Positions 2,562-56,847 of a DNA stretch of 64,000 nt are shown here, one piece after another. Every line of letters begins with the position of its first letter. Position 1 is the stretch's first letter. Under the pieces are notes generated by a model. That model worked only from the letters and a program-made list of their open reading frames with translations, did not search any database and was not told the origin of the DNA. The position numbers and the translations under genes are program-made. Origin of the DNA: Cyclobacterium sp. SYSU L10401 (lineage in GTDB: Bacteria; Bacteroidota; Bacteroidia; Cytophagales; Cyclobacteriaceae); assembly GCF_010993705.1 (NCBI RefSeq), contig NZ_WOFO01000008.1, positions 110,112 through 174,111 of the forward strand, in the 5' to 3' direction.

Positions 2562-3641
2562 ATGAACCCTCTAGATCCCATAAAAAACAAGTATCTGCAA
2601 GAAGGCTTGGTGATTCCGGCCCATCCCCTGGCCCTTAAAGCCAACAGGAAATTAGATGAAACCCACCAAAGGGCGCTCAGCAGGTATTACCTGGCCTCAG
2701 GCGCAGGGGGTATGGCGGTAGGCGTTCACAGCACGCAGTTTGAAATCAGGGACAAGCAATATGGACTACTGGCTCCGGTGCTTAAAATGGCCATGGAGGA
2801 AGTTCAGGCAGCAAAGCCGGAAAAGCCTTTTTTAATGGTCTCCGGGATAGTTGGCGATACCGATCAGGCACTGGAAGAAGCTTACCTGGCCAAAAGTTTG
2901 GGATATGATTTGGGCCTGTTGAGTGCGGGTGGACTGGGTGACTGGTCAGAAACGCAACTGATAAGGAGAGCAGAAAAAGTAGCGGAGCTGATACCGCTCT
3001 TTGGGTTTTACCTGCAACCCTCTGCAGGAGGGAGGTTGCTCAGTCATGAATTCTGGAAGGATTTTGCAGCTATTCCGAATGTGCATGCGATAAAGATGGC
3101 ACCATTTAACCGTTACCAGACCCTGGACGTGGTTCGGGCCGTATGTGCATCGGAAAGGAAGCATGAAATAGCCTTGTATACCGGAAATGATGACAATATT
3201 GTAGCTGATTTACTCAGCTCATTTTCTTTTATGGTCGATGGACAGTTGGTTACCAAAAGAATCGTTGGGGGATTGCTCGGGCATTGGGCAGTTTGGACCA
3301 GCAAGGCAGTAGCACTATTGAACAGGGTGAAGGACTGCCTGGATAGGGATGAAGGTGACATGGCCGATCTGCTGGCGCTGGGTGTACAGATTACCGATAC
3401 CAATGCCGCTATATTTGATCCTTCCCACCAGTTTAAAGGGTGTATTCCCGGTATTCATGAGGTTTTGAGGCGCCAGGGTTTGCTTCAGGGAAGGTGGTGC
3501 CTAAACCCGCAGGAAGTCCTTTCACCGGGACAAATGGAAGAAATAGACCGGGTCTATTCGGATTACCCGGAATTAAATGACGATGATTTTGTGAAAAAGC
3601 ACCTTTCTGCTTTTTTAAAACCCCGTCAGGGGGAAAGGTAA
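2562..3641 (+). CDS. Dihydrodipicolinate synthase/N-acetylneuraminate lyase family aldolase
   Basis: A 359-residue TIM-barrel aldolase of the DapA/NanA family, longer than the usual ~290-300 residues. The Schiff-base Lys is K178 (NVHAIKMAPF) and the catalytic Tyr is Y150 (GFYLQPSAGG), with the 28-residue spacing seen in DapA (Y133/K161). These enzymes cleave or form a C-C bond using pyruvate or a related 2-oxo acid. Together with the SDR immediately upstream and the Nramp-like transporter, it suggests a short catabolic route for an unidentified sugar acid or amino-sugar acid. The 3' end overlaps the convergent esterase gene by 16 bases. It is unlikely to be the lysine-biosynthetic DapA, given its length and context. 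Confidence 0.85.
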   Translation: MNPLDPIKNKYLQEGLVIPAHPLALKANRKLDETHQRALSRYYLASGAGGMAVGVHSTQFEIRDKQYGLLAPVLKMAMEEVQAAKPEKPFLMVSGIVGDTDQALEEAYLAKSLGYDLGLLSAGGLGDWSETQLIRRAEKVAELIPLFGFYLQPSAGGRLLSHEFWKDFAAIPNVHAIKMAPFNRYQTLDVVRAVCASERKHEIALYTGNDDNIVADLLSSFSFMVDGQLVTKRIVGGLLGHWAVWTSKAVALLNRVKDCLDRDEGDMADLLALGVQITDTNAAIFDPSHQFKGCIPGIHEVLRRQGLLQGRWCLNPQEVLSPGQMEEIDRVYSDYPELNDDDFVKKHLSAFLKPRQGER

Positions 3642-5434
3642 TACTCAAAAAAGGAATAGATGATTTCGTTGGATTCCGGGTTGGGTGCGTGGGTTTCCCG
3701 ATTACTCATGCCGACCCGGTTTTTTACGCCGAAGAGTTCGTTAGCGCGCAGGCTGTAGTTTAATGGAACCCAGCGATCCTGTGGATCTTCGGCTCCTCCC
3801 GATACCAAAAATGGACGGGGTGCCATCAACACGTGAAGTTCATGTAAGTCCATCTTTTTCTCCAGTAATTCAGGGTAAAGCCCCATTGCGGGATTTTTCT
3901 CGGTAGGTAAGCCCCTTTCCCTCCAGGGAGGCGGATGATAGCCCAAATACCAGGGTTCCCAATAGTTGATATTGGGTTTGTCTTTTTCAAAGACTATGCC
4001 CGGGTCTGACCAGGCAGCCGCAGCATATTTTTCAAACAAACAGGAGGCGAACATCGCCCATTTGCCACCATAGGAATGGCCTGTGATGCCTATCTTGTCC
4101 GCATTGACTTCAGGTAGTCCTGCGAGCAACTGCCAGGCGTTGGCTGCAGCGTAGGCCAGCATGGACAGGGGCTGTACCGTGGCACTGTCTATGTGAGGGT
4201 AATACAGGGAATAGGTTTCATTTTCAGTAGTTTGTGTGGTACCCAATGAGAGGGTGACAAAGCCCCGTTTGGCCAATTGCAAGGCAAAATCCCTGTCAGG
4301 CAATCCTTTTCCTATGGCTGTTTCAGGCTCATAATATACCGTTACCACAGCAGGCTTGTTTTTGGCGCCATAGGGAACCAGTAAATACCCCTCTGTCATT
4401 TGTCCGGGAACCCATTCAAACCTGATCTTTTTTTGTACAAAACCTTCCTCCTCGACCGTATGCAGTACTTCGAAAGTAGGAGCGGTGATCAATTCCGGCC
4501 ATTCCCCCATGAGCATGTGCCACTTTTTGAGTATTTCTTTTCTTCTCTCCCGCCAGTCGGCCAAGTCACTGACCACCGTTCCATCCTCAAAAACAAATGG
4601 GTCACTGAAATCTCCTTCCACGTCTTCGTATTCATAGGGCAATGAAAAGTAGGGAGCCAATTCATCCCATTGGATCATTTTTTTCAGGTAGGCAGGAAAG
4701 GTTTGTCCCTCACTGGTACCGCTGCCTTCCATACCCTGACCATAGATAATGCTGTCGCCAAAAAAGACCAGTTTTTTCTTTTGGCTGATTTTATTGCTTG
4801 TTACCAGGAATTCAAAAACCTTTTCAGCAATGATCTGATTGCCTTTGCTGGTGGGATGCACCCCATCGGGTTTTCCCGAATTCGCCACATTCATTATCAA
4901 TGAACCTTTTCCAGGATTTGGTGATTTTCTTTTGATAAATTCCTGGTGTAGATCAATCACCTTTAGCCCATTTTCCCTGGCCAGTTCAGCGATGATTTCG
5001 TTTGCTTTTCTTATTTTGACCAAAGGAGGTGAGTCGAAAAAATCCAGCTCATACCTGTTGGATATGGCATTGGTATCTACAGGAGTAAGGTTAAGCAATA
5101 CGGTTTCTATACCTGCTTGCTCCAGTTTGTTAATGATTTTTTGATAGGCTTTGCGATAGGTGCCATAGTCCAGAAATTTATGCAGGTTGATCATGTCGTG
5201 TATGCCCACCATGATAAAAACCATATCCGGGTTTTCGCTGATGACATCCCGGTCTATCCTCGCCAATAGGTCCAGAGAATTGTTGTTGCCTGCCCCCTTG
5301 TTGATGATACTCCATGTAGGTGCAGGGGCTTTTGCTTCCAGTAAAGTGGAATCCTTCAAAAAAACCGTACGGGCCAGTGTTAAGCTAAAACTGGCCAAAA
5401 GAAAGCCGAAAAGGAAAAGATATTTGAAATGCAT
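3626..5434 (-). CDS. Secreted esterase: SGNH-like domain with permuted motifs plus alpha/beta hydrolase
   Basis: A 602-residue exported protein; the signal peptide covers about residues 1-21. The N-terminal region has SGNH/GDSL motifs in an unusual order: block II (KGAGN, 46-50), block III (VGIHDM, 76-81, with His where Asn is usual), block V (DGVHP, 190-194) and only then block I (FFGDS, 224-228), which normally comes first. From about residue 270 a second domain resembles acetyl-xylan esterase/dienelactone hydrolase, with nucleophile S454 in GHSYGG, an acid around D550-D553 and H582 (RETHAP). Both parts point to deacylation of polysaccharide in the periplasm or outside the cell. The gene is convergent with the aldolase gene and divergent from the lipoprotein gene at 5658. 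The alpha/beta hydrolase call is firm; the permutation could also be two SGNH pieces in tandem. Confidence 0.85.
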   Translation of the reverse strand: MHFKYLFLFGFLLASFSLTLARTVFLKDSTLLEAKAPAPTWSIINKGAGNNNSLDLLARIDRDVISENPDMVFIMVGIHDMINLHKFLDYGTYRKAYQKIINKLEQAGIETVLLNLTPVDTNAISNRYELDFFDSPPLVKIRKANEIIAELARENGLKVIDLHQEFIKRKSPNPGKGSLIMNVANSGKPDGVHPTSKGNQIIAEKVFEFLVTSNKISQKKKLVFFGDSIIYGQGMEGSGTSEGQTFPAYLKKMIQWDELAPYFSLPYEYEDVEGDFSDPFVFEDGTVVSDLADWRERRKEILKKWHMLMGEWPELITAPTFEVLHTVEEEGFVQKKIRFEWVPGQMTEGYLLVPYGAKNKPAVVTVYYEPETAIGKGLPDRDFALQLAKRGFVTLSLGTTQTTENETYSLYYPHIDSATVQPLSMLAYAAANAWQLLAGLPEVNADKIGITGHSYGGKWAMFASCLFEKYAAAAWSDPGIVFEKDKPNINYWEPWYLGYHPPPWRERGLPTEKNPAMGLYPELLEKKMDLHELHVLMAPRPFLVSGGAEDPQDRWVPLNYSLRANELFGVKNRVGMSNRETHAPNPESNEIIYSFFEYYLSP

Positions 5435-5657
5435 TTTTAATGATCTGAAACATATTTTTTTAAATTTAAGAATTTCAATTTTAATTCGCCATATAAAAAT
5501 TATTATTTCGCTTCACATCCTAAATATTTGTCAGCCAATATTTTATAATTTAAAATTAATCAGGGTTTTTTACCATTAATTTCTTCCAATGACTGATTTC
5601 AGAAATGGGAGGATAAATGTATATTGCCTTACATTTTCAATCCATTTTGCCCACTCT

Positions 5658-7790
5658 ATGTTAAGACTCTGTTTTATTCCGTTGATGCTCTGCGTTTTGT
5701 TTTCCTGTACTATCCCTGATTCCAGGCGAATCCATGTGGTGGGTCAGTCCAATAACGATTTATTGAAATGGCTGGATAGCGAAGGTTTTCAACTGGAATT
5801 TCATGAGGATCCAATGGAAGCCGTTGACCGGATGTCCAGGGGGGCTACTTTTTTGATATTGGCAGGAAATTATCCCAGGGAGCGGGTAGCTATTCCGGAG
5901 GGTTTGATTGCCTCATTAAAGGAAAAAGAAATACGGTATTATTTGGAGTATCCGGAAGATTTTGTTGGCTTGGAAAGTACGGGAGAAATATTGCAGACCA
6001 GGCTGGAAAGGGGCGTGGTGGTGACAGGTGATTTTGGAGATCAACTTCCACCAATGCGGATTCTGGGAATTAACGATTGTCATGTTATCCCTGCAGAGGT
6101 AGAGGATCCCATGTTGGTGCTGGCCAAAGTCGCAGGATTAGACCATGCGGCCTATGGGCTGGAGGGAGTACCCGCTTATCCGCTCCTGTATCAGAAGGAT
6201 TCCGGATTCGTTGCATTGACCCGCCTGTCGGAATTTGCAAAAGGGCGCTTTGGACCTCAGAACCATTGGAAAGTCCTTTGGGGCCACCTGATAAGCCAGC
6301 TTACAGGAGAGCATTCACTCACCTATGAGGCCTGGCCCAGGTACCTCGAACCAACATTTGATGAAACCAGTGCCATCGGGGATGAAGACAAGGTCAATAG
6401 CGTAAAAAGGGGAGTGGACTGGTTTTTTAAGGGTAATTTTTTCATTCATAAGGATTGGAAGGAAAGGTGGCTGCAGTACCAGGGGGATGGTACCAACCCT
6501 GTTGGACCACCGGTACCAGGCTATTTGCCCACGGGAGATGGCACAGAAGGCCTTTTGGAAGGGCATTCCTCCAATATCTACCATGATGGTAGCCAACAAT
6601 ACCGCTACTGGATCAGGGCAGATGTTCAGGGTGAAGGGGCCTATGCCCTGGCGGCTGCAGGCAGACTTTTGGATGAAAAGGAATATGATAAAAGAGCAGA
6701 AAACCTGATGGAATTTTTATTCCGGGAAAATTTAAGGGGAGGTCCCAGGAGCCACCCGGATTCCGCAGCTTTTGGACTAATAGGCTGGTCACATACCCAC
6801 CCCCATGTCTATTACGGAGATGACAATGCCAGGGCCATATTGGGCGTGTTGGGAGCCATGGCTCACCTCGAAAAGCAGGATTGGAATTTGGAAATGCTGG
6901 AAGCCATATTGGGAAATTTCAGGACTACTGGTAGCAATGGATTCAGGATTAACCGCATAGAAAACCAGGACCTTCAAAGACAGGGATGGAAGCATTACTG
7001 GAACAGGGATATCGTCAATCCAGCCCCACATTTTGAATCCTGGATGTGGGCGGTATACCTTTGGCTTTACGACAAAACCGGCTATGAGCCCCTATTGGAA
7101 AAGACCAAAACAGCCATCAGGATTACCATGGAGGGCTATCCGGATGAATGGTTGTGGACCAATGGGATTCAGCAGGAGCGGGCACGGATGATTTTACCCC
7201 TGGCCTGGCTGGTCAGGGTAGAAGATACGCCCGAACACCGGGAATGGCTGGACACTGTGGTAAGCAAACTTTTGGAGAATCAGCAAGCCAACGGCGCAAT
7301 CAGGGAAGAACTGGGGGGCAGCGATAAGGGCAGGTATGGCAGGACTCGGTCCAATGAGGAATATGGCCTTCATGAGGCACCCCTGATTTTTGAAAATGGG
7401 GATCCTATTGCAGACATGCTGTATACCAGTAATTTTGCCTTCTTCAGCCTCAACGAAGCGGCCCATGCCACAGGAAACCCGCAATACCAGGAAGCCCTGA
7501 CTAAACTATCCGATTTTTTAACCAGAATTCAGGTCAAAAGTAACCGTTTTCATGATCTAGACGGGGCCTGGTTCCGGGCATTTGATTACGATAAATGGGA
7601 ATTCTGGGCATCAAATGCCGATGTGGGCTGGGGGGCCTGGGGTACCCTCACCGGCTGGACCCAAAGCTGGATTGTAGCCACACAGGTTTTGGTCTTGCAA
7701 CAGCAAAGTTATTGGGAATTAACAAGCGGTTCAGGTATTGCAACCCATATGGAAGATCGGCTGGATCTAATGCTGGAGGATTACCGGTAA
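5658..7790 (+). CDS. Lipoprotein with alpha/alpha-toroid (six-hairpin glycosidase-like) region
   Basis: A 710-residue protein from ATG 5658. An upstream ATG at 5589 would add 23 residues in front of an otherwise perfect lipoprotein signal (MLRLCFIPLMLCVLFSC), so 5658 is preferred. After Cys17 comes an alpha/beta region of about 200 residues, then a Trp/Tyr/His-rich helical region with recurring motifs such as GWSHTHPHVYYGDDNAR that resembles (alpha/alpha)6 barrel glycosidases and lyases. I cannot assign a glycoside hydrolase family or name catalytic residues. The neighbours (esterases, BNR-ThuA, DUF1080) support a role in polysaccharide breakdown at the cell surface or periplasm. It is transcribed away from the SGNH-esterase gene, from a shared AT-rich interval at about 5435-5657. 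Confidence 0.7.
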   Translation: MLRLCFIPLMLCVLFSCTIPDSRRIHVVGQSNNDLLKWLDSEGFQLEFHEDPMEAVDRMSRGATFLILAGNYPRERVAIPEGLIASLKEKEIRYYLEYPEDFVGLESTGEILQTRLERGVVVTGDFGDQLPPMRILGINDCHVIPAEVEDPMLVLAKVAGLDHAAYGLEGVPAYPLLYQKDSGFVALTRLSEFAKGRFGPQNHWKVLWGHLISQLTGEHSLTYEAWPRYLEPTFDETSAIGDEDKVNSVKRGVDWFFKGNFFIHKDWKERWLQYQGDGTNPVGPPVPGYLPTGDGTEGLLEGHSSNIYHDGSQQYRYWIRADVQGEGAYALAAAGRLLDEKEYDKRAENLMEFLFRENLRGGPRSHPDSAAFGLIGWSHTHPHVYYGDDNARAILGVLGAMAHLEKQDWNLEMLEAILGNFRTTGSNGFRINRIENQDLQRQGWKHYWNRDIVNPAPHFESWMWAVYLWLYDKTGYEPLLEKTKTAIRITMEGYPDEWLWTNGIQQERARMILPLAWLVRVEDTPEHREWLDTVVSKLLENQQANGAIREELGGSDKGRYGRTRSNEEYGLHEAPLIFENGDPIADMLYTSNFAFFSLNEAAHATGNPQYQEALTKLSDFLTRIQVKSNRFHDLDGAWFRAFDYDKWEFWASNADVGWGAWGTLTGWTQSWIVATQVLVLQQQSYWELTSGSGIATHMEDRLDLMLEDYR

Positions 7791-52067: not shown

Positions 52068-54482
52068 CTATTCAAAGGGCAATTTATTAATGGGATCAAA
52101 ACCGAAATATTTATCCAGAAAGGCATAGGCTTCTTTTCTTGTTTCCGGGGGAAAGTCATGCCCGGCATCCGGGTACCTTACCTGCAGATTATCCGGAAAT
52201 CCCATCCACCGGTATACCGGAGCGAGCCGGTCAATCCCTGATTTGACACCCGCTACAGAAAAATTACTATCCTGTAAGGGTGCATTGGTAAAAACCGGCC
52301 TGGGAGCAATCAAGGCAATGATGTCCGTAAAATCAAAGGGAAGCCTGGCATCCGGAAGCTGATTTTTGATGGCAGGCATGTACCTTTCCTGTGCCCAGGG
52401 ACCAAGTCGTCCCCCGTATTTTTTTGAACCTTCCTCTCCAATGTCATAAAATTCAAATGGCGTCCAACCACAACTGCTGACCACCGCTTTGATCCGCTGG
52501 TCATGGGCAGCGGCGAATAAGGCATTGTGTCCGCCAAGGGAGTGGCCAATCACACCAATCCTATCGGAATCTACTTCCGGCATCTGACCCAGTACATCCA
52601 CGCATCGCATGTGGTTCCAAACGCCCAGCAAGGTTCCGGAAGGGAAGCCGTCTCTGGAAAAATCATGGTTTCTCTGCTCCCCAAAGCTGGGGTAATCGGG
52701 TGCCATCACCACATAGCCTCTCTCTGCCAACTCCCTTGCAATTCCCCTGTTTTCCAGCGGACCTTGTCCATCTACGATTTTTTTCCCCCCTTCACCTGTA
52801 CTATGTAGTACCAGCATAGCAGGCCGGTTTTTGCTTTGGTGGGGCACATACAGGTAGGCCGTGACTTTATTCCTTTCATCAGATGGGAAACTCACCTGGT
52901 GCCTGGTAAAACTGCTTTCCACCAGGGAATCGGAATAGGTAAGCCGGGGTACCGAAAGATGCTCCCGGGAGGGTAGCGTTCCCATGATAGAGGCCACCTT
53001 GTGCTGCCAATCTTTCTTTTTTTCTTTCCATTCCTCGAGGCTTCTGATAGGAACATCACTTTCCCGCTGTAAAAGGTAGGGACTAGTAACCGCCTGACCC
53101 GGGTTTGGCTGGTGCAATAACTTTTTGATGGCCTCCAGGATGACAGGCTCGGCTTCGGCTGTCACCGGGCTGGCGTTGATTTCATAGCCTTGCTCCGGGT
53201 AGGCTGCCGCTGTGCCAATATAAAACGGTCCGTAATCCCCATAAGCAGCCATGGCTACCGATAAATCCGGCCTTACTGCCTTGGCGGCCAATTGGTATTC
53301 CACAAATAGTTCTCCAGGAAGATGGAGTATTCTGGCATCTCCCAGTGTCAGGCAGCTGATGTCAATTTTTTTACCCAGTTGCTGTCGCTTGTACCAGGTC
53401 AGTTTTTGCATGTTGTTGGTCAGCCAGCGAGGGTTTTGCAGGTGCATTTCCTGCTCGATTTTCGCAATCGCTTCATTCGCAGGCAGCAACAGGGGCTCCT
53501 GTTGCCAAAATACATCCTGCGGGTTTAATGCCTGTTTGCGGGTATTTTCCCATGCCTTTTCCATACCTGCTGCCAGCCTTTCAGCCAGCAGTTTGCGGTT
53601 GATTTTTGAGCCATCATTGTATTTGCCTGCAGCAATATTAGCACCAGCACCATTAAAATGCACATGCAGGGCTTCAGGGACAGCCAGTTGTCGCAGGTAG
53701 CGGGCTATTCCGGGGAAATCGGGGTTGGCTACTTTGGTCAGGTAATAGCTCTGCGGGTGCACGGCATAATAACTGAGCACCGCTATGGGTTGATCCCCAT
53801 TCCAGAAACTGATCAGGGAAACTTCAGGATCGATCAGGCCTTCCGGGAAATCCCGGATTTGGGGATCTTGGGTAGAGGAGCTACGAAAATATTGGACTTT
53901 CCCGTCAGCACCTATTATACGGCGGTTGGAAGCCACCTTTTCCACTATTGCCTTCCCTGTTCCCACATGGCTGAGGGGTTGAGCCTCGGTTAACGCTGTT
54001 TCTATGGCCTCTTCCAGTCTGTTCAATAATACATGGTCAAAGGAACTTTCAAAAGCCTGCGGATCCAGTCCGGCATCCACCAGGATTTTTTCCGCACCCC
54101 AATCGCTGATGGGGGCATCATGTTGGTGGACCGTATGGATGGCTACCCTTGAAGGAATGGTGGAGGCTGCCTTTGCCAGGTGCGCTTTAAAGGCATCCTG
54201 GCTTTCATTTCCTATTCCAATCCAGTCCACTGCGCAAAGCACAATGGGAAGGCCGCTGCCGCTGAGGACGATTCCTTTGGCCCTGAGGCCTAAATCATCC
54301 CTGTTTTCCATCCGGTCATAGGCAAGCAAACTTCCAACCGGGGGAGTGGCATCCACATCAAAGACGGCAACTGACAATCCGGTAAGTTTTTCTTTGTTGC
54401 CCTGCCAGGCCAGGGCAGGCATGGACAGGAACAGGCAGAGCAGGCATAAAATCGAGGGAATCGGGCGTTTTATTTTAGTCAT
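52068..54482 (-). CDS. Ceramidase-like domain fused to an alpha/beta hydrolase (acetyl-xylan-esterase-like)
   Basis: An 804-residue exported protein (signal peptide ending near MPALAWQ). The N-terminal half resembles neutral ceramidase catalytic domains: VAVFDVDATPPVGSLLAYDR and AIHTVHQHDAPISDWG carry the metal-type His/Asp residues. The C-terminal half (from about residue 475) is an alpha/beta hydrolase with nucleophile GHSLGGHNAL (GxSxG), an acidic residue within NAPLQDSNFS and the His in DAGHDFPPE. It differs from the ceramidase-like protein at 8775-10184 by this added esterase. Both are probably glycan-active secreted enzymes. It overlaps the upstream double-esterase gene by 8 bases, so the two are co-translated. 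Confidence 0.83.
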   Translation of the reverse strand: MTKIKRPIPSILCLLCLFLSMPALAWQGNKEKLTGLSVAVFDVDATPPVGSLLAYDRMENRDDLGLRAKGIVLSGSGLPIVLCAVDWIGIGNESQDAFKAHLAKAASTIPSRVAIHTVHQHDAPISDWGAEKILVDAGLDPQAFESSFDHVLLNRLEEAIETALTEAQPLSHVGTGKAIVEKVASNRRIIGADGKVQYFRSSSTQDPQIRDFPEGLIDPEVSLISFWNGDQPIAVLSYYAVHPQSYYLTKVANPDFPGIARYLRQLAVPEALHVHFNGAGANIAAGKYNDGSKINRKLLAERLAAGMEKAWENTRKQALNPQDVFWQQEPLLLPANEAIAKIEQEMHLQNPRWLTNNMQKLTWYKRQQLGKKIDISCLTLGDARILHLPGELFVEYQLAAKAVRPDLSVAMAAYGDYGPFYIGTAAAYPEQGYEINASPVTAEAEPVILEAIKKLLHQPNPGQAVTSPYLLQRESDVPIRSLEEWKEKKKDWQHKVASIMGTLPSREHLSVPRLTYSDSLVESSFTRHQVSFPSDERNKVTAYLYVPHQSKNRPAMLVLHSTGEGGKKIVDGQGPLENRGIARELAERGYVVMAPDYPSFGEQRNHDFSRDGFPSGTLLGVWNHMRCVDVLGQMPEVDSDRIGVIGHSLGGHNALFAAAHDQRIKAVVSSCGWTPFEFYDIGEEGSKKYGGRLGPWAQERYMPAIKNQLPDARLPFDFTDIIALIAPRPVFTNAPLQDSNFSVAGVKSGIDRLAPVYRWMGFPDNLQVRYPDAGHDFPPETRKEAYAFLDKYFGFDPINKLPFE

Positions 54483-56847
54483 TATTCGATGGGGTATGCT
54501 GGTGAATCCAGTTAATCATTTCTTTTTGGGATGTCTCTGCGAATCGGTTAAACCCTTTTGGTATATACTGGTAAGGTTTGTTTTTGGCCCCCATTTGATT
54601 GGAAATAATTTCCAGATTTTTCAAATTACTGCTGATGGCTTTCAGGTCTGCATGCCTGTCTTGTTCAGGGCTGACCACCATCAGGGGCCGGGGCAGGATA
54701 GCAGCAAGTATTTCCGGGAAATCCACCGGTATTCCGGAAGGGTCGTCTTTATATAATCCCCATTTTGGGACCAAACCATACAGGTGAGAATAGGCCTTGA
54801 TCCCCTCCAATTCTTCGCCAGCCTCCCTTAAGGAAGTAAAGGCGGAAGCAATCGCTACCCCGTCAACCTGATCTTCCAAAGCAGCAGTAAACAGTGCTAC
54901 TGTTCCGCCCAAGGCATAACCGGCCAGGTAAATGTGGTCGGTATCCACAAATGCCAGTTGACCCAAAGCCTGAATAGCATCACGCGTATCCTTTACCATT
55001 TTGCCCATTTTGGACCAATCCGGATACCTGTCATAAAAATCAGCACCTTCCTCTATGCGACTGCCATAACCCAACAAGTCCATGGTGAATACGGCCATCC
55101 CCTTCTCCAGACAGGTTTCAATAAAATGGTTCATTCCCGTATCAAAGCCGGTGTTGGTATATTTGTGCAGGTAAATGACAACCGGGATTTTGTTACCACT
55201 GTCTGTTTTGAATTTCCCCTGATCATCCGAAGGGAGGTAAAGGGCACCATGCTGGTAATCTCCCAAAGCATTGTAGGGCGCAATATTTCGTCTGATCCCA
55301 TGGGTGACCCGGGGGCGGTTGAGCAACAAATCCAGGTAATCACTATTGGAGCTTAAACTTGATATGGGATCGGCAGCGATCCCCTCGGGCTGTTTTCCAA
55401 GGGTCCACCGGATTTTTTCCCGGACGTTTTCCTGCCAGCCTTTCAGGTCTTCCCTGGTCATGGAGGAAATGTCATTCACCAAGGAGGGTAATTCGACCGA
55501 TTGGTCTTTTGGCAAGGCAGATGGGGTGTTTTTCTTTTCCCAGAGATCAAAGTCAAAGCTATAGTACCTTTTGTTTTCCCATTTTTTGTCGGACCTGCCA
55601 AATTGAATGTCCAGCCAGTCCAGGTAAGATTCGATGTCTCTGGCAGCCACCGCATGTTTTCCATCCCTGAAGCGTATGCCTAATTTTTCTGGCTGCCCCA
55701 AAAATTCATATACCTTCTTCAGGGACTGGTAATTTTGTTCGATGGCCCAGGGATCACCTCCCCCGGCTTCCCTGATGGACGAACTCAATAAAAGGGAGTT
55801 GGGTGCTATCAAGGCCATCAGAGAATTTTGATCAATCGGCAATTTGTGCTCCCTGCCATTAAAAAACCGCAAACGGGGATGAAACCATTGAGGCCTGATG
55901 GAATTAAGGTAATCAATAGATTCATTTTCATGTCTTTCATCCGTATAACGGTAGGGGATCTCGCCGCCTGTGCCTCCGCTACTGCTGATCAGGGCCGTGA
56001 TTCTGGAGTCAAAGGCGGCGGCAAAGATCGATAATTTGGCATTTCTGGAGTGCCCGGTTAAAGCAATTTTATCTTTATCTACTTCTGGTATGGTGTACAA
56101 GTAATCTACGGCCCTTTGTGCTCCCCAGGCCCGGGTCATTAAAGCGGACCAGTCGTATTCCGGGTATACTTCCTGGTAGGCAATGGTTTCATCAAAGACA
56201 TCGGCTCCGGCATAAATCAATCCCATGTAGCCCCTTCTTACAGCTATTTGTACCCAGCCCCGGTGATTCCACTGGCTCATAAATACCGGATGAGGTCCCT
56301 CGCCCGGGGGAGTGTAAACCTCCAGGGTCAACCGGGCTTTTTCATGATTGCCAAACTTCAGCAGGACGGTTTGAACCTTGATGGCACCTTCCATATGTTC
56401 TGAAATTATTTCTGAAGTAAGGTTTTCAGGGGGATTGGGAAAGGTACCGGACAATAAATGGATGGCTTGTTCTTTGATCCACTCTCTTTTGTTTTGCCAC
56501 TGCTCCATCGATTTCACAGGGACCTGCTGACCACCTACCTCCAGGACCAGAGGGTCTGGGAGGAAAGGGATATCAGGCAGTAAGTCGAAATCAGGAGGCA
56601 GTTCACCGGTTCTTTTTTGCCAGGCACCCCATGTGCTGTCCTTAAAGCTAAGGCGTTCAAAGGAGGCAAACACATTTCTGGTCCTTTGATCAGCTCTCGG
56701 ATGGGGTCTGTTATGTTCCAGTAGGTTTTCCAGAAAGGCTTTACGCTTTATGGTATCTACTGACTGGGCAATTCCAAAATAAGGGATCAGGCAGAGTAGT
56801 AGAGGTAGGAGAAGGGGATACAGCGATTTGCCTGTTAAATTTTTCAT
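54475..56847 (-). CDS. Double alpha/beta hydrolase: CE15-like first half, apparently inactive second half
   Basis: A 790-residue exported protein (signal peptide ending near GIAQ, ~28). The first half has LTGHSRNAKLS (S267), the GHSRxxK nucleophile motif of CE15 glucuronoyl esterases, with candidate His398 (DGKHAV). The second half, from about 510, is another alpha/beta hydrolase, but the nucleophile elbow is GYALGG (643-648), so Ser is Ala645; the usual GHD/GHxF His is replaced by KGFNRFAE. So only one half seems catalytic, cleaving ester links between glucuronic acid and lignin or other groups. It is the first gene of a likely minus-strand run and overlaps the next gene by 8 bases. Confidence 0.82.
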   Translation of the reverse strand: MKNLTGKSLYPLLLPLLLCLIPYFGIAQSVDTIKRKAFLENLLEHNRPHPRADQRTRNVFASFERLSFKDSTWGAWQKRTGELPPDFDLLPDIPFLPDPLVLEVGGQQVPVKSMEQWQNKREWIKEQAIHLLSGTFPNPPENLTSEIISEHMEGAIKVQTVLLKFGNHEKARLTLEVYTPPGEGPHPVFMSQWNHRGWVQIAVRRGYMGLIYAGADVFDETIAYQEVYPEYDWSALMTRAWGAQRAVDYLYTIPEVDKDKIALTGHSRNAKLSIFAAAFDSRITALISSSGGTGGEIPYRYTDERHENESIDYLNSIRPQWFHPRLRFFNGREHKLPIDQNSLMALIAPNSLLLSSSIREAGGGDPWAIEQNYQSLKKVYEFLGQPEKLGIRFRDGKHAVAARDIESYLDWLDIQFGRSDKKWENKRYYSFDFDLWEKKNTPSALPKDQSVELPSLVNDISSMTREDLKGWQENVREKIRWTLGKQPEGIAADPISSLSSNSDYLDLLLNRPRVTHGIRRNIAPYNALGDYQHGALYLPSDDQGKFKTDSGNKIPVVIYLHKYTNTGFDTGMNHFIETCLEKGMAVFTMDLLGYGSRIEEGADFYDRYPDWSKMGKMVKDTRDAIQALGQLAFVDTDHIYLAGYALGGTVALFTAALEDQVDGVAIASAFTSLREAGEELEGIKAYSHLYGLVPKWGLYKDDPSGIPVDFPEILAAILPRPLMVVSPEQDRHADLKAISSNLKNLEIISNQMGAKNKPYQYIPKGFNRFAETSQKEMINWIHQHTPSNND

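Follow-up and report, generated by a model that had tools for sequence, protein, structure and literature searches.

The window analysed here is a 64,000-nucleotide stretch from a Cyclobacterium genome (Bacteroidota; 5.9 Mb, 22 contigs). It carries a minus-strand open reading frame (ORF) at positions 3626–5434, which starts with ATG and encodes a protein of 602 amino acids. The protein combines an N-terminal SGNH (GDSL) hydrolase half, in which the conserved sequence blocks stand in a permuted order, with a C-terminal alpha/beta hydrolase half. The features are listed below, with the evidence for each in brackets; the structure models were made with AlphaFold2 (AF2), and their local confidence is given as the predicted local distance difference test (pLDDT).

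3626–5434, minus: whole ORF, 602 amino acids, with leader, permuted SGNH domain and CE15-like alpha/beta hydrolase (ORF reading, Pfam, full AF2 model)
5369–5434, minus: N-terminal leader, residues 1–22, signal-peptide-like by eye (sequence alone)
5345–5356, minus: KDST, residues 27–30, a motif of the leader that we do not regard as block I (NDS is present in L024 and L026, both without the SGNH half)
4781–5314, minus: SGNH core with blocks II, III and V, residues 41–218 (Pfam; fold match to 7ddy, Z 14.2)
5285–5302, minus: block II NKGAGN, residues 45–50 (alignment, residue table)
5195–5206, minus: block III GIHD, residues 77–80, with His79 replacing Asn (residue table)
4856–4867, minus: block V DGVH, residues 190–193 (residue table; poorly modelled, pLDDT <50)
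4664–4780, minus: permuted block I segment, residues 219–257, with strand 221–226, GDS 226–228 and a helix from 246 (rotation tests, predicted secondary structure)
4751–4759, minus: GDS with the predicted nucleophile Ser228 (codons checked by eye, residue table)
3629–4663, minus: CE15-like alpha/beta hydrolase, residues 258–602 (OtCE15A fold match, alignment)
4073–4075, minus: Ser454 of GHSYGG (invariant in 29/29 sequences; codon checked by eye)
3785–3787, minus: Asp550 (invariant in 29/29; codon checked by eye)
3689–3691, minus: His582 (invariant in 29/29; codon checked by eye)

To judge by its leader, the protein is probably secreted. Residues 1–40 evolve fast, with a ratio of non-synonymous to synonymous substitution rates (dN/dS) of 0.30 and 0.19 in two of four comparisons, the other two being saturated.

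Block order and fold of the two halves

The SGNH blocks of the protein run II-III-V-I: GDS (226–228) stands behind DGVH (190–193). An earlier note on this DNA had described this order, together with the replacement of the block III Asn by His, and both can be read directly from the ORF. The block I Ser (GDS), the block II Gly (NKGAGN) and the block V DxxH (DGVH) are present, and His79 is found where SGNH hydrolases have the block III Asn. The conventional order I-II-III-V is not found in the natural sequence and is restored on rotation. PF00657 matched residues 41–206 from profile position 45 and PF13472 residues 41–201 from position 33; the N-terminus therefore lacks block I. The natural permuted sequences enter these two main GDSL Pfam profiles at position 31–49.

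A block I upstream of the ATG was rejected, as there is no GDS within the 26 upstream codons of the open frame. An assembly or frameshift artefact, or chance, was ruled out by the same order in eight of the 12 gene-bearing Cyclobacterium genomes, with all motifs recognisable, and in two other genera (four fused proteins).

Moving about residues 219–255 to the front had been predicted to restore the standard order, and it does. With the tail (219–257) placed in front of the core, the PF13472 score of the window protein rose from 63.1 to 74.8 bits, and the matched part of the profile grew from 35–178 to its full length (1–178). The scores of L078, L080 and L120 rose from 95.0 to 107.3, from 77.6 to 90.2 and from 84.5 to 95.0 bits, respectively. 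The gain was 10.5–12.6 bits in all four proteins tested out of 36 permuted sequences, and the coverage was 1–178 in three of them and 1–177 of 178 in L080.

We also built a hidden Markov model (HMM) from 22 conventional SGNH relatives and compared each rotation with 200 shuffled tails. Rotation added 14–32 bits in 22 of 22 sequences and 12–24 bits in 14 of 14 from Verrucomicrobiota. Combined, and including the window, 36/36 permuted sequences gained 12.3–32.1 bits, each more than with any of its 200 tail shuffles; the 36 contain near copies (e.g. L015/L016, L018/L020 and L143/L144). Thirteen of the 57 matching sequences were left out of this test, either because they fell outside both definitions (L065, L119, L022, L023, L011) or as partial conventional sequences (L107, L110, L010, L102, L104, L101, L112, L115).

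The reverse comparison used an HMM of the permuted family (A2). It matched 22 permuted sequences as one collinear piece, from position 2–3 to 215–219. On conventional sequences, the block I piece preceded the core in 30 of 31; this is the figure for all of them, since those retained for the 22-sequence HMM had that arrangement by selection. The block I pieces were weak by themselves (−3.4 to 13.5 bits). The conventional acetyl xylan esterase AlAXEase (7ddy) was matched in two pieces, with profile 179–195 on chain residues 21–37 and profile 2–174 on chain residues 59–222. A profile search of the PDB gave 38 distinct sequences, and in none of these did the best stretch run collinearly into the tail. 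The best stretch lay within profile 2–174 in 37 of them; in the other, 4rw0, it was 180–197 on chain residues 2–19, that is, N-terminal. Residue alignments were examined for two of the 38. The three tests agree and, at the level of sequence, identify the tail as the missing first piece of the SGNH fold.

Two AF2 models were made, one of the SGNH domain alone (six sequences, mean pLDDT 67.8) and one of the full-length mature protein (29 sequences, mean pLDDT 78.8). The core matched 7ddy with Z 14.2 and a root mean square deviation (rmsd) of 3.1 over 157 residues (model residues 15–190, protein 36–211). In both models, the tail forms a strand (221–226) and a helix from residue 246. The helix covers 246–256 in the domain model and extends to residue 263 in the full model, where it enters the start of the hydrolase. 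The strand order of the SGNH sheet is 2-1-3-4-5. Residues 42–47 are strand 2 in the AF2 assignment; this strand needs a partner, strand 1 alone lies next to it in that order, and 221–226 is the one strand left unpaired. The tail would therefore supply strand 1, and the block I segment would pack beside strand 2. The strand and helix expected from the earlier note are thus in the models, and their packing in the SGNH manner is what we infer from the sheet order.

The C-terminal half is a full alpha/beta hydrolase, as had been proposed: S454, D550 and H582 (alignment columns S433, D529 and H561, plus 21) do not vary among the 29 sequences aligned. It has the CE15 fold, with OtCE15A matching about residues 275–602 (Z 29.2, 304 residues, rmsd 2.6). 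The identity to OtCE15A is about 20%, and its Ser and His are invariant in the family of the window protein. An Arg after the nucleophile is generally important in CE15. OtCE15A has this Arg (S267 and R268 according to PDB titles), whereas the window family has Tyr or Phe (29/29). A search of the protein's own genome gave weak matches of the hydrolase half to two overlapping minus-strand ORFs of the window, 52068–54482 (804 amino acids) and 54475–56847 (790 amino acids); by eye, the former begins with a ceramidase-like half.

Distribution and catalytic residues

Homologues with the same motif order were searched for in genome samples that overlap partly. Bacteroidota, Planctomycetota and Verrucomicrobiota all contain stand-alone proteins whose chain finishes directly behind block I and the helix that follows it, and none of the 12 sequences fused to the alpha/beta hydrolase has block I first (it is last in 12/12). 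Together with the successful rotation of all 36 permuted sequences, this lends good support to the natural circular permutation that the earlier note had suggested.

The gene was found in 12 Cyclobacterium genomes (that of the window and 11 others). The permuted domain is intact in eight, degraded in two (L022 and L023) and missing in two (L024 and L026), where leader and hydrolase are retained. In one Cyclobacterium genome (G007), the hydrolase gene without the SGNH half falls in two ORFs (L026/L028). In the family sample (390 genomes, E 1e-20), 15 genomes had a match: eight Cyclobacterium, four with fused proteins from two other genera (g53 and g56), two with stand-alone proteins (L027 and L064), and one with L065, in which block I sits in another frame. 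One of the four g53/g56 fused proteins (L076) is interrupted by a contig end. The phylum sample (395 genomes, E 1e-15) gave three members besides the window, all stand-alone (L078, L079 and L080). The class sample (295 genomes, E 1e-20) contained no permuted member besides the window, the five other matches being conventional, and the class of G516 (195 genomes) contained none besides G516.

Five of 199 genomes of Planctomycetota (the phylum of the L040 genome) have the permuted family; one of them has only L119, whose copy stops right after GDSLT. In one planctomycete genome, the permuted SGNH domain leads two large proteins, one of 1161 amino acids with DUF6259 (L135:244–3729) and one of 1342 amino acids with CBM_4_9 (L136:2719–6747). 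Among 194 genomes of Verrucomicrobiota (the phylum of the L061 genome), 29 had a match, and in 19 the match reached profile position 213 or beyond. The best locus was read in 15 of these 19; 14 were confirmed, and one (L148) is cut by a stop. With up to four matches per genome (L138–L152), Verrucomicrobiota appear to be the richest source among the groups sampled. The out-of-frame or stop-interrupted C-terminal block I of L065, L119 and L148 may reflect either decay or sequencing error.

All 24 permuted sequences that are not fused to the alpha/beta hydrolase keep the block I Ser, the block II Gly, the block III Asn and the block V Asp and His. The ORF stretches examined in these 24 contain no alpha/beta hydrolase of this kind, and several carry other domains. 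The complete set is found in 0 of the 12 fused sequences, which leaves the "double esterase" of the earlier note unsupported. The residues lost differ within the fused group. All eight Cyclobacterium proteins with an intact domain have His for the block III Asn and keep the Ser, Asp, His and block II Gly. All four g53/g56 proteins have GDN, with Asn replacing the block I Ser. In L022 and L023, the motifs with the Ser and the His are both gone. Judged by these residues, the fused group as a whole is under relaxed catalytic pressure in its SGNH half.

When the window was compared with four other Cyclobacterium, dN/dS was 0.046–0.059 for the SGNH core and 0.034–0.085 for the block I tail, which indicates purifying selection, with synonymous changes near or at saturation. 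The hydrolase half gave 0.032–0.036 in two non-saturated comparisons. The selection on core and tail implies that the SGNH half is kept for something. Its degradation or loss in four Cyclobacterium genomes implies that it is dispensable there.

Phylogenetic trees were calculated without near copies, and the larger one also without five long-branch conventional sequences. The fused sequences form one clade (100/99), which is sister to the stand-alone L080 (96/84) and nested within a permuted Bacteroidota clade (100/98). In the smaller tree, permuted and conventional sequences are separated by one split (58/70), found in 60% of bootstraps.

Origin and role of the permuted half

Very probably, the N-terminal half has an SGNH (GDSL) hydrolase fold that was circularly permuted in nature. 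Its chain would now begin and end in the loop that connects helix 1 to strand 2. A linker of about 8–10 residues behind the block V helix would bridge the former termini, which would place strand 1, bearing the GDS nucleophile, and helix 1 at the end. This rearrangement would predate the gene in the window, as complete stand-alone enzymes of the same order occur in three phyla; these are likely to be ordinary Ser-His-Asp acyl esterases acting on glycans. In an ancestor of Cyclobacterium and two other genera, a fusion at the last helix would then have joined the permuted gene to that of a CE15-like alpha/beta hydrolase. In the window protein, the ester would most likely be cleaved by the alpha/beta hydrolase half. 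As Ser228, Asp190 and His193 are kept and His79 replaces Asn, the SGNH half would be expected to have weak or altered esterase activity, or to bind esterified sugars. We consider such a split of labour between the two halves fairly probable.

Several observations weigh against parts of this account. The domain model is moderate, with pLDDT <50 in residues 182–195 (block V) and in the loop 229–243 after GDS, and the full model is similar. The structural aligners are sequential, so that a permuted match cannot show; of 50 VIA-align rows, 46 do not go beyond model residue 199 and four, of Axe2, reach 236, a result that speaks neither for nor against the proposed place of the tail. The saturation of synonymous changes affects the selection estimates, and four Cyclobacterium genomes have either a degraded SGNH half (two) or none (two). 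Finally, a single origin of the permutation was present in 37% of 200 bootstrap trees and was not rejected (p-AU 0.43), while the larger tree shows two changes. The trees are thus compatible with one origin of the permutation or with several.

A true double esterase, in which the SGNH half is a full working enzyme with His79 replacing the block III Asn, is possible, though doubtful. It would agree with the Ser, Asp, His and block II Gly kept in eight of eight Cyclobacterium sequences with an intact domain and with the purifying selection on core and tail, and AlgX and AlgJ are active with Tyr at block III (PMC9487903 and PMC4148444). However, the sister fused genera have lost the Ser (GDN in 4/4), two Cyclobacterium have lost the Ser and His motifs, and the fused group as a whole is relaxed catalytically compared with the complete set in 24/24 other sequences. 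Three further explanations concern the block order itself. The hybrid of two SGNH fragments that the earlier note offered as an alternative corresponds to tandem copying followed by trimming, the usual route to circular permutation. In a remnant of such an intermediate, an SGNH domain deprived of strand 1 would precede the initial fragment of a second, deleted SGNH domain, and the tail would not complete the fold. The damaged block I of L065, L119 and L148 would suit such a remnant. It is nevertheless improbable, as stand-alone proteins from three phyla retain GDS and terminate soon behind helix 1, and the tail is conserved along with the core. A tandem SGNH was not encountered, although no systematic search for one was made. 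A domain swap, with the block I segment completing the fold of a neighbouring chain, is compatible with the sequence and is slightly less probable still: in the model, a linker of about eight residues leads from the last core helix to strand 221–226, and the single-chain AF2 prediction already contains strand and helix. That KDST (27–30) is a cryptic block I in the normal place, with the C-terminal GDS accidental, is hardly credible. (K/N)DS occurs in 9/9 aligned Cyclobacterium leaders, and block I of the SGNH-like protein PatB1 reads KDS (PMC9487903). Yet two of the nine leaders come from genomes without the SGNH half, only about 18 residues separate KDS from the block II Gly, so that helix 1 does not fit, and residues 22–35 have pLDDT <50. 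By eye, the motif is also absent from the four g53/g56 fused proteins and from the stand-alone members.

Circular permutation of the fold itself has precedents. According to PMC9487903, PMC4148444 and PMC10302187, AlgX/AlgJ, PatB1 (DHHW) and WssI are circularly permuted SGNH-like O-acetyltransferases with the order H-S-G-N or variants of it. They share with the window protein permuted blocks, a Ser-His-Asp triad, an altered block III residue and an SGNH fold, which for the window protein is a prediction. The site of the cut differs: these known permutants appear to be cut between blocks III and V, whereas the window family is cut between I and II and has the order G-N-H-S in all 36 permuted sequences, never H-S-G-N. 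The motifs differ as well. According to PMC9487903, AlgX/AlgJ have GTSYS as block I and DxH as block V. PatB1/DHHW proteins have KDS and DHHW; the window protein has the conventional GDS and a DxxH (DGVH). AlAXEase (7ddy) and Axe2, which the core resembles most in both sequence and fold, are conventional SGNH acetyl xylan esterases that begin with block I, and the permuted profile matches 7ddy as two out-of-order pieces.

No report of the G-N-H-S order in an SGNH protein was found in the open-licence literature (PMC), and the permuted group is probably an unrecognised SGNH family. The furthest-reaching interpretation is tentative, with somewhat less than an even chance of being right. In this view, the permuted group would be an undescribed SGNH family that occurs in three or more phyla and whose cut between blocks I and II arose separately from that of AlgX/PatB. 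Its Cyclobacteriaceae branch would have been fused through the exposed last helix to a second esterase, would then have lost the catalytic set by different routes, and would be retained as a non-catalytic module. Flavimarina Fll4 is likewise a bacterial protein with several esterase domains (three carbohydrate esterase domains, CE6 and putative CE1). Its families differ from those of the window protein, and the abstract of PMC12247016 does not mention permutation.

SGNH/GDSL proteins are very common acyl hydrolases and are usually recognised by their initial block I. To motif scans and Pfam, a clade whose sequences open with block II would look truncated or inactive. The family would also mark a second, different site at which the SGNH fold tolerates new chain ends. 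It provides natural examples with and without the full catalytic residues, which would be useful for testing the effects of permutation on folding and domain fusion.

Gene neighbourhood

The fusion is flanked by a divergently oriented gene:

5589–7790, plus: divergent neighbour, 733 amino acids, unmatched in Pfam (E 1e-5) and NCBIfam (E 0.01), conserved beside the fusion

All Cyclobacterium and g53/g56 loci examined have this gene next to the fusion. No Pfam or NCBIfam name was obtained for it or for the neighbour at 2562–3641. A homologue of 5589–7790 with 58% identity (L131:8084–10213) lies about 1.4 kb from the stand-alone L080, with one gene between them. In a locus of Chitinophagaceae (L037), a hydrolase without the SGNH half adjoins Nramp, epimerase and 2562-like genes. 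The neighbourhoods of L080 and L037 suggest that two genes of related sugar loci were brought together and then fused.

A Pfam scan (E 1e-5) covered 20 neighbours and large members chosen around the stand-alone and planctomycete loci; four of the 20 proteins had no match at this threshold. GH88, a weak match to heparinase II/III and an alpha-L-fucosidase were found beside L064. The other neighbours scanned included an FAD oxidoreductase (PF12831, at two loci), a GlcNAc 2-epimerase and a sulfatase-like phosphodiesterase. These genes fit a role in glycan breakdown in general and name no particular substrate.

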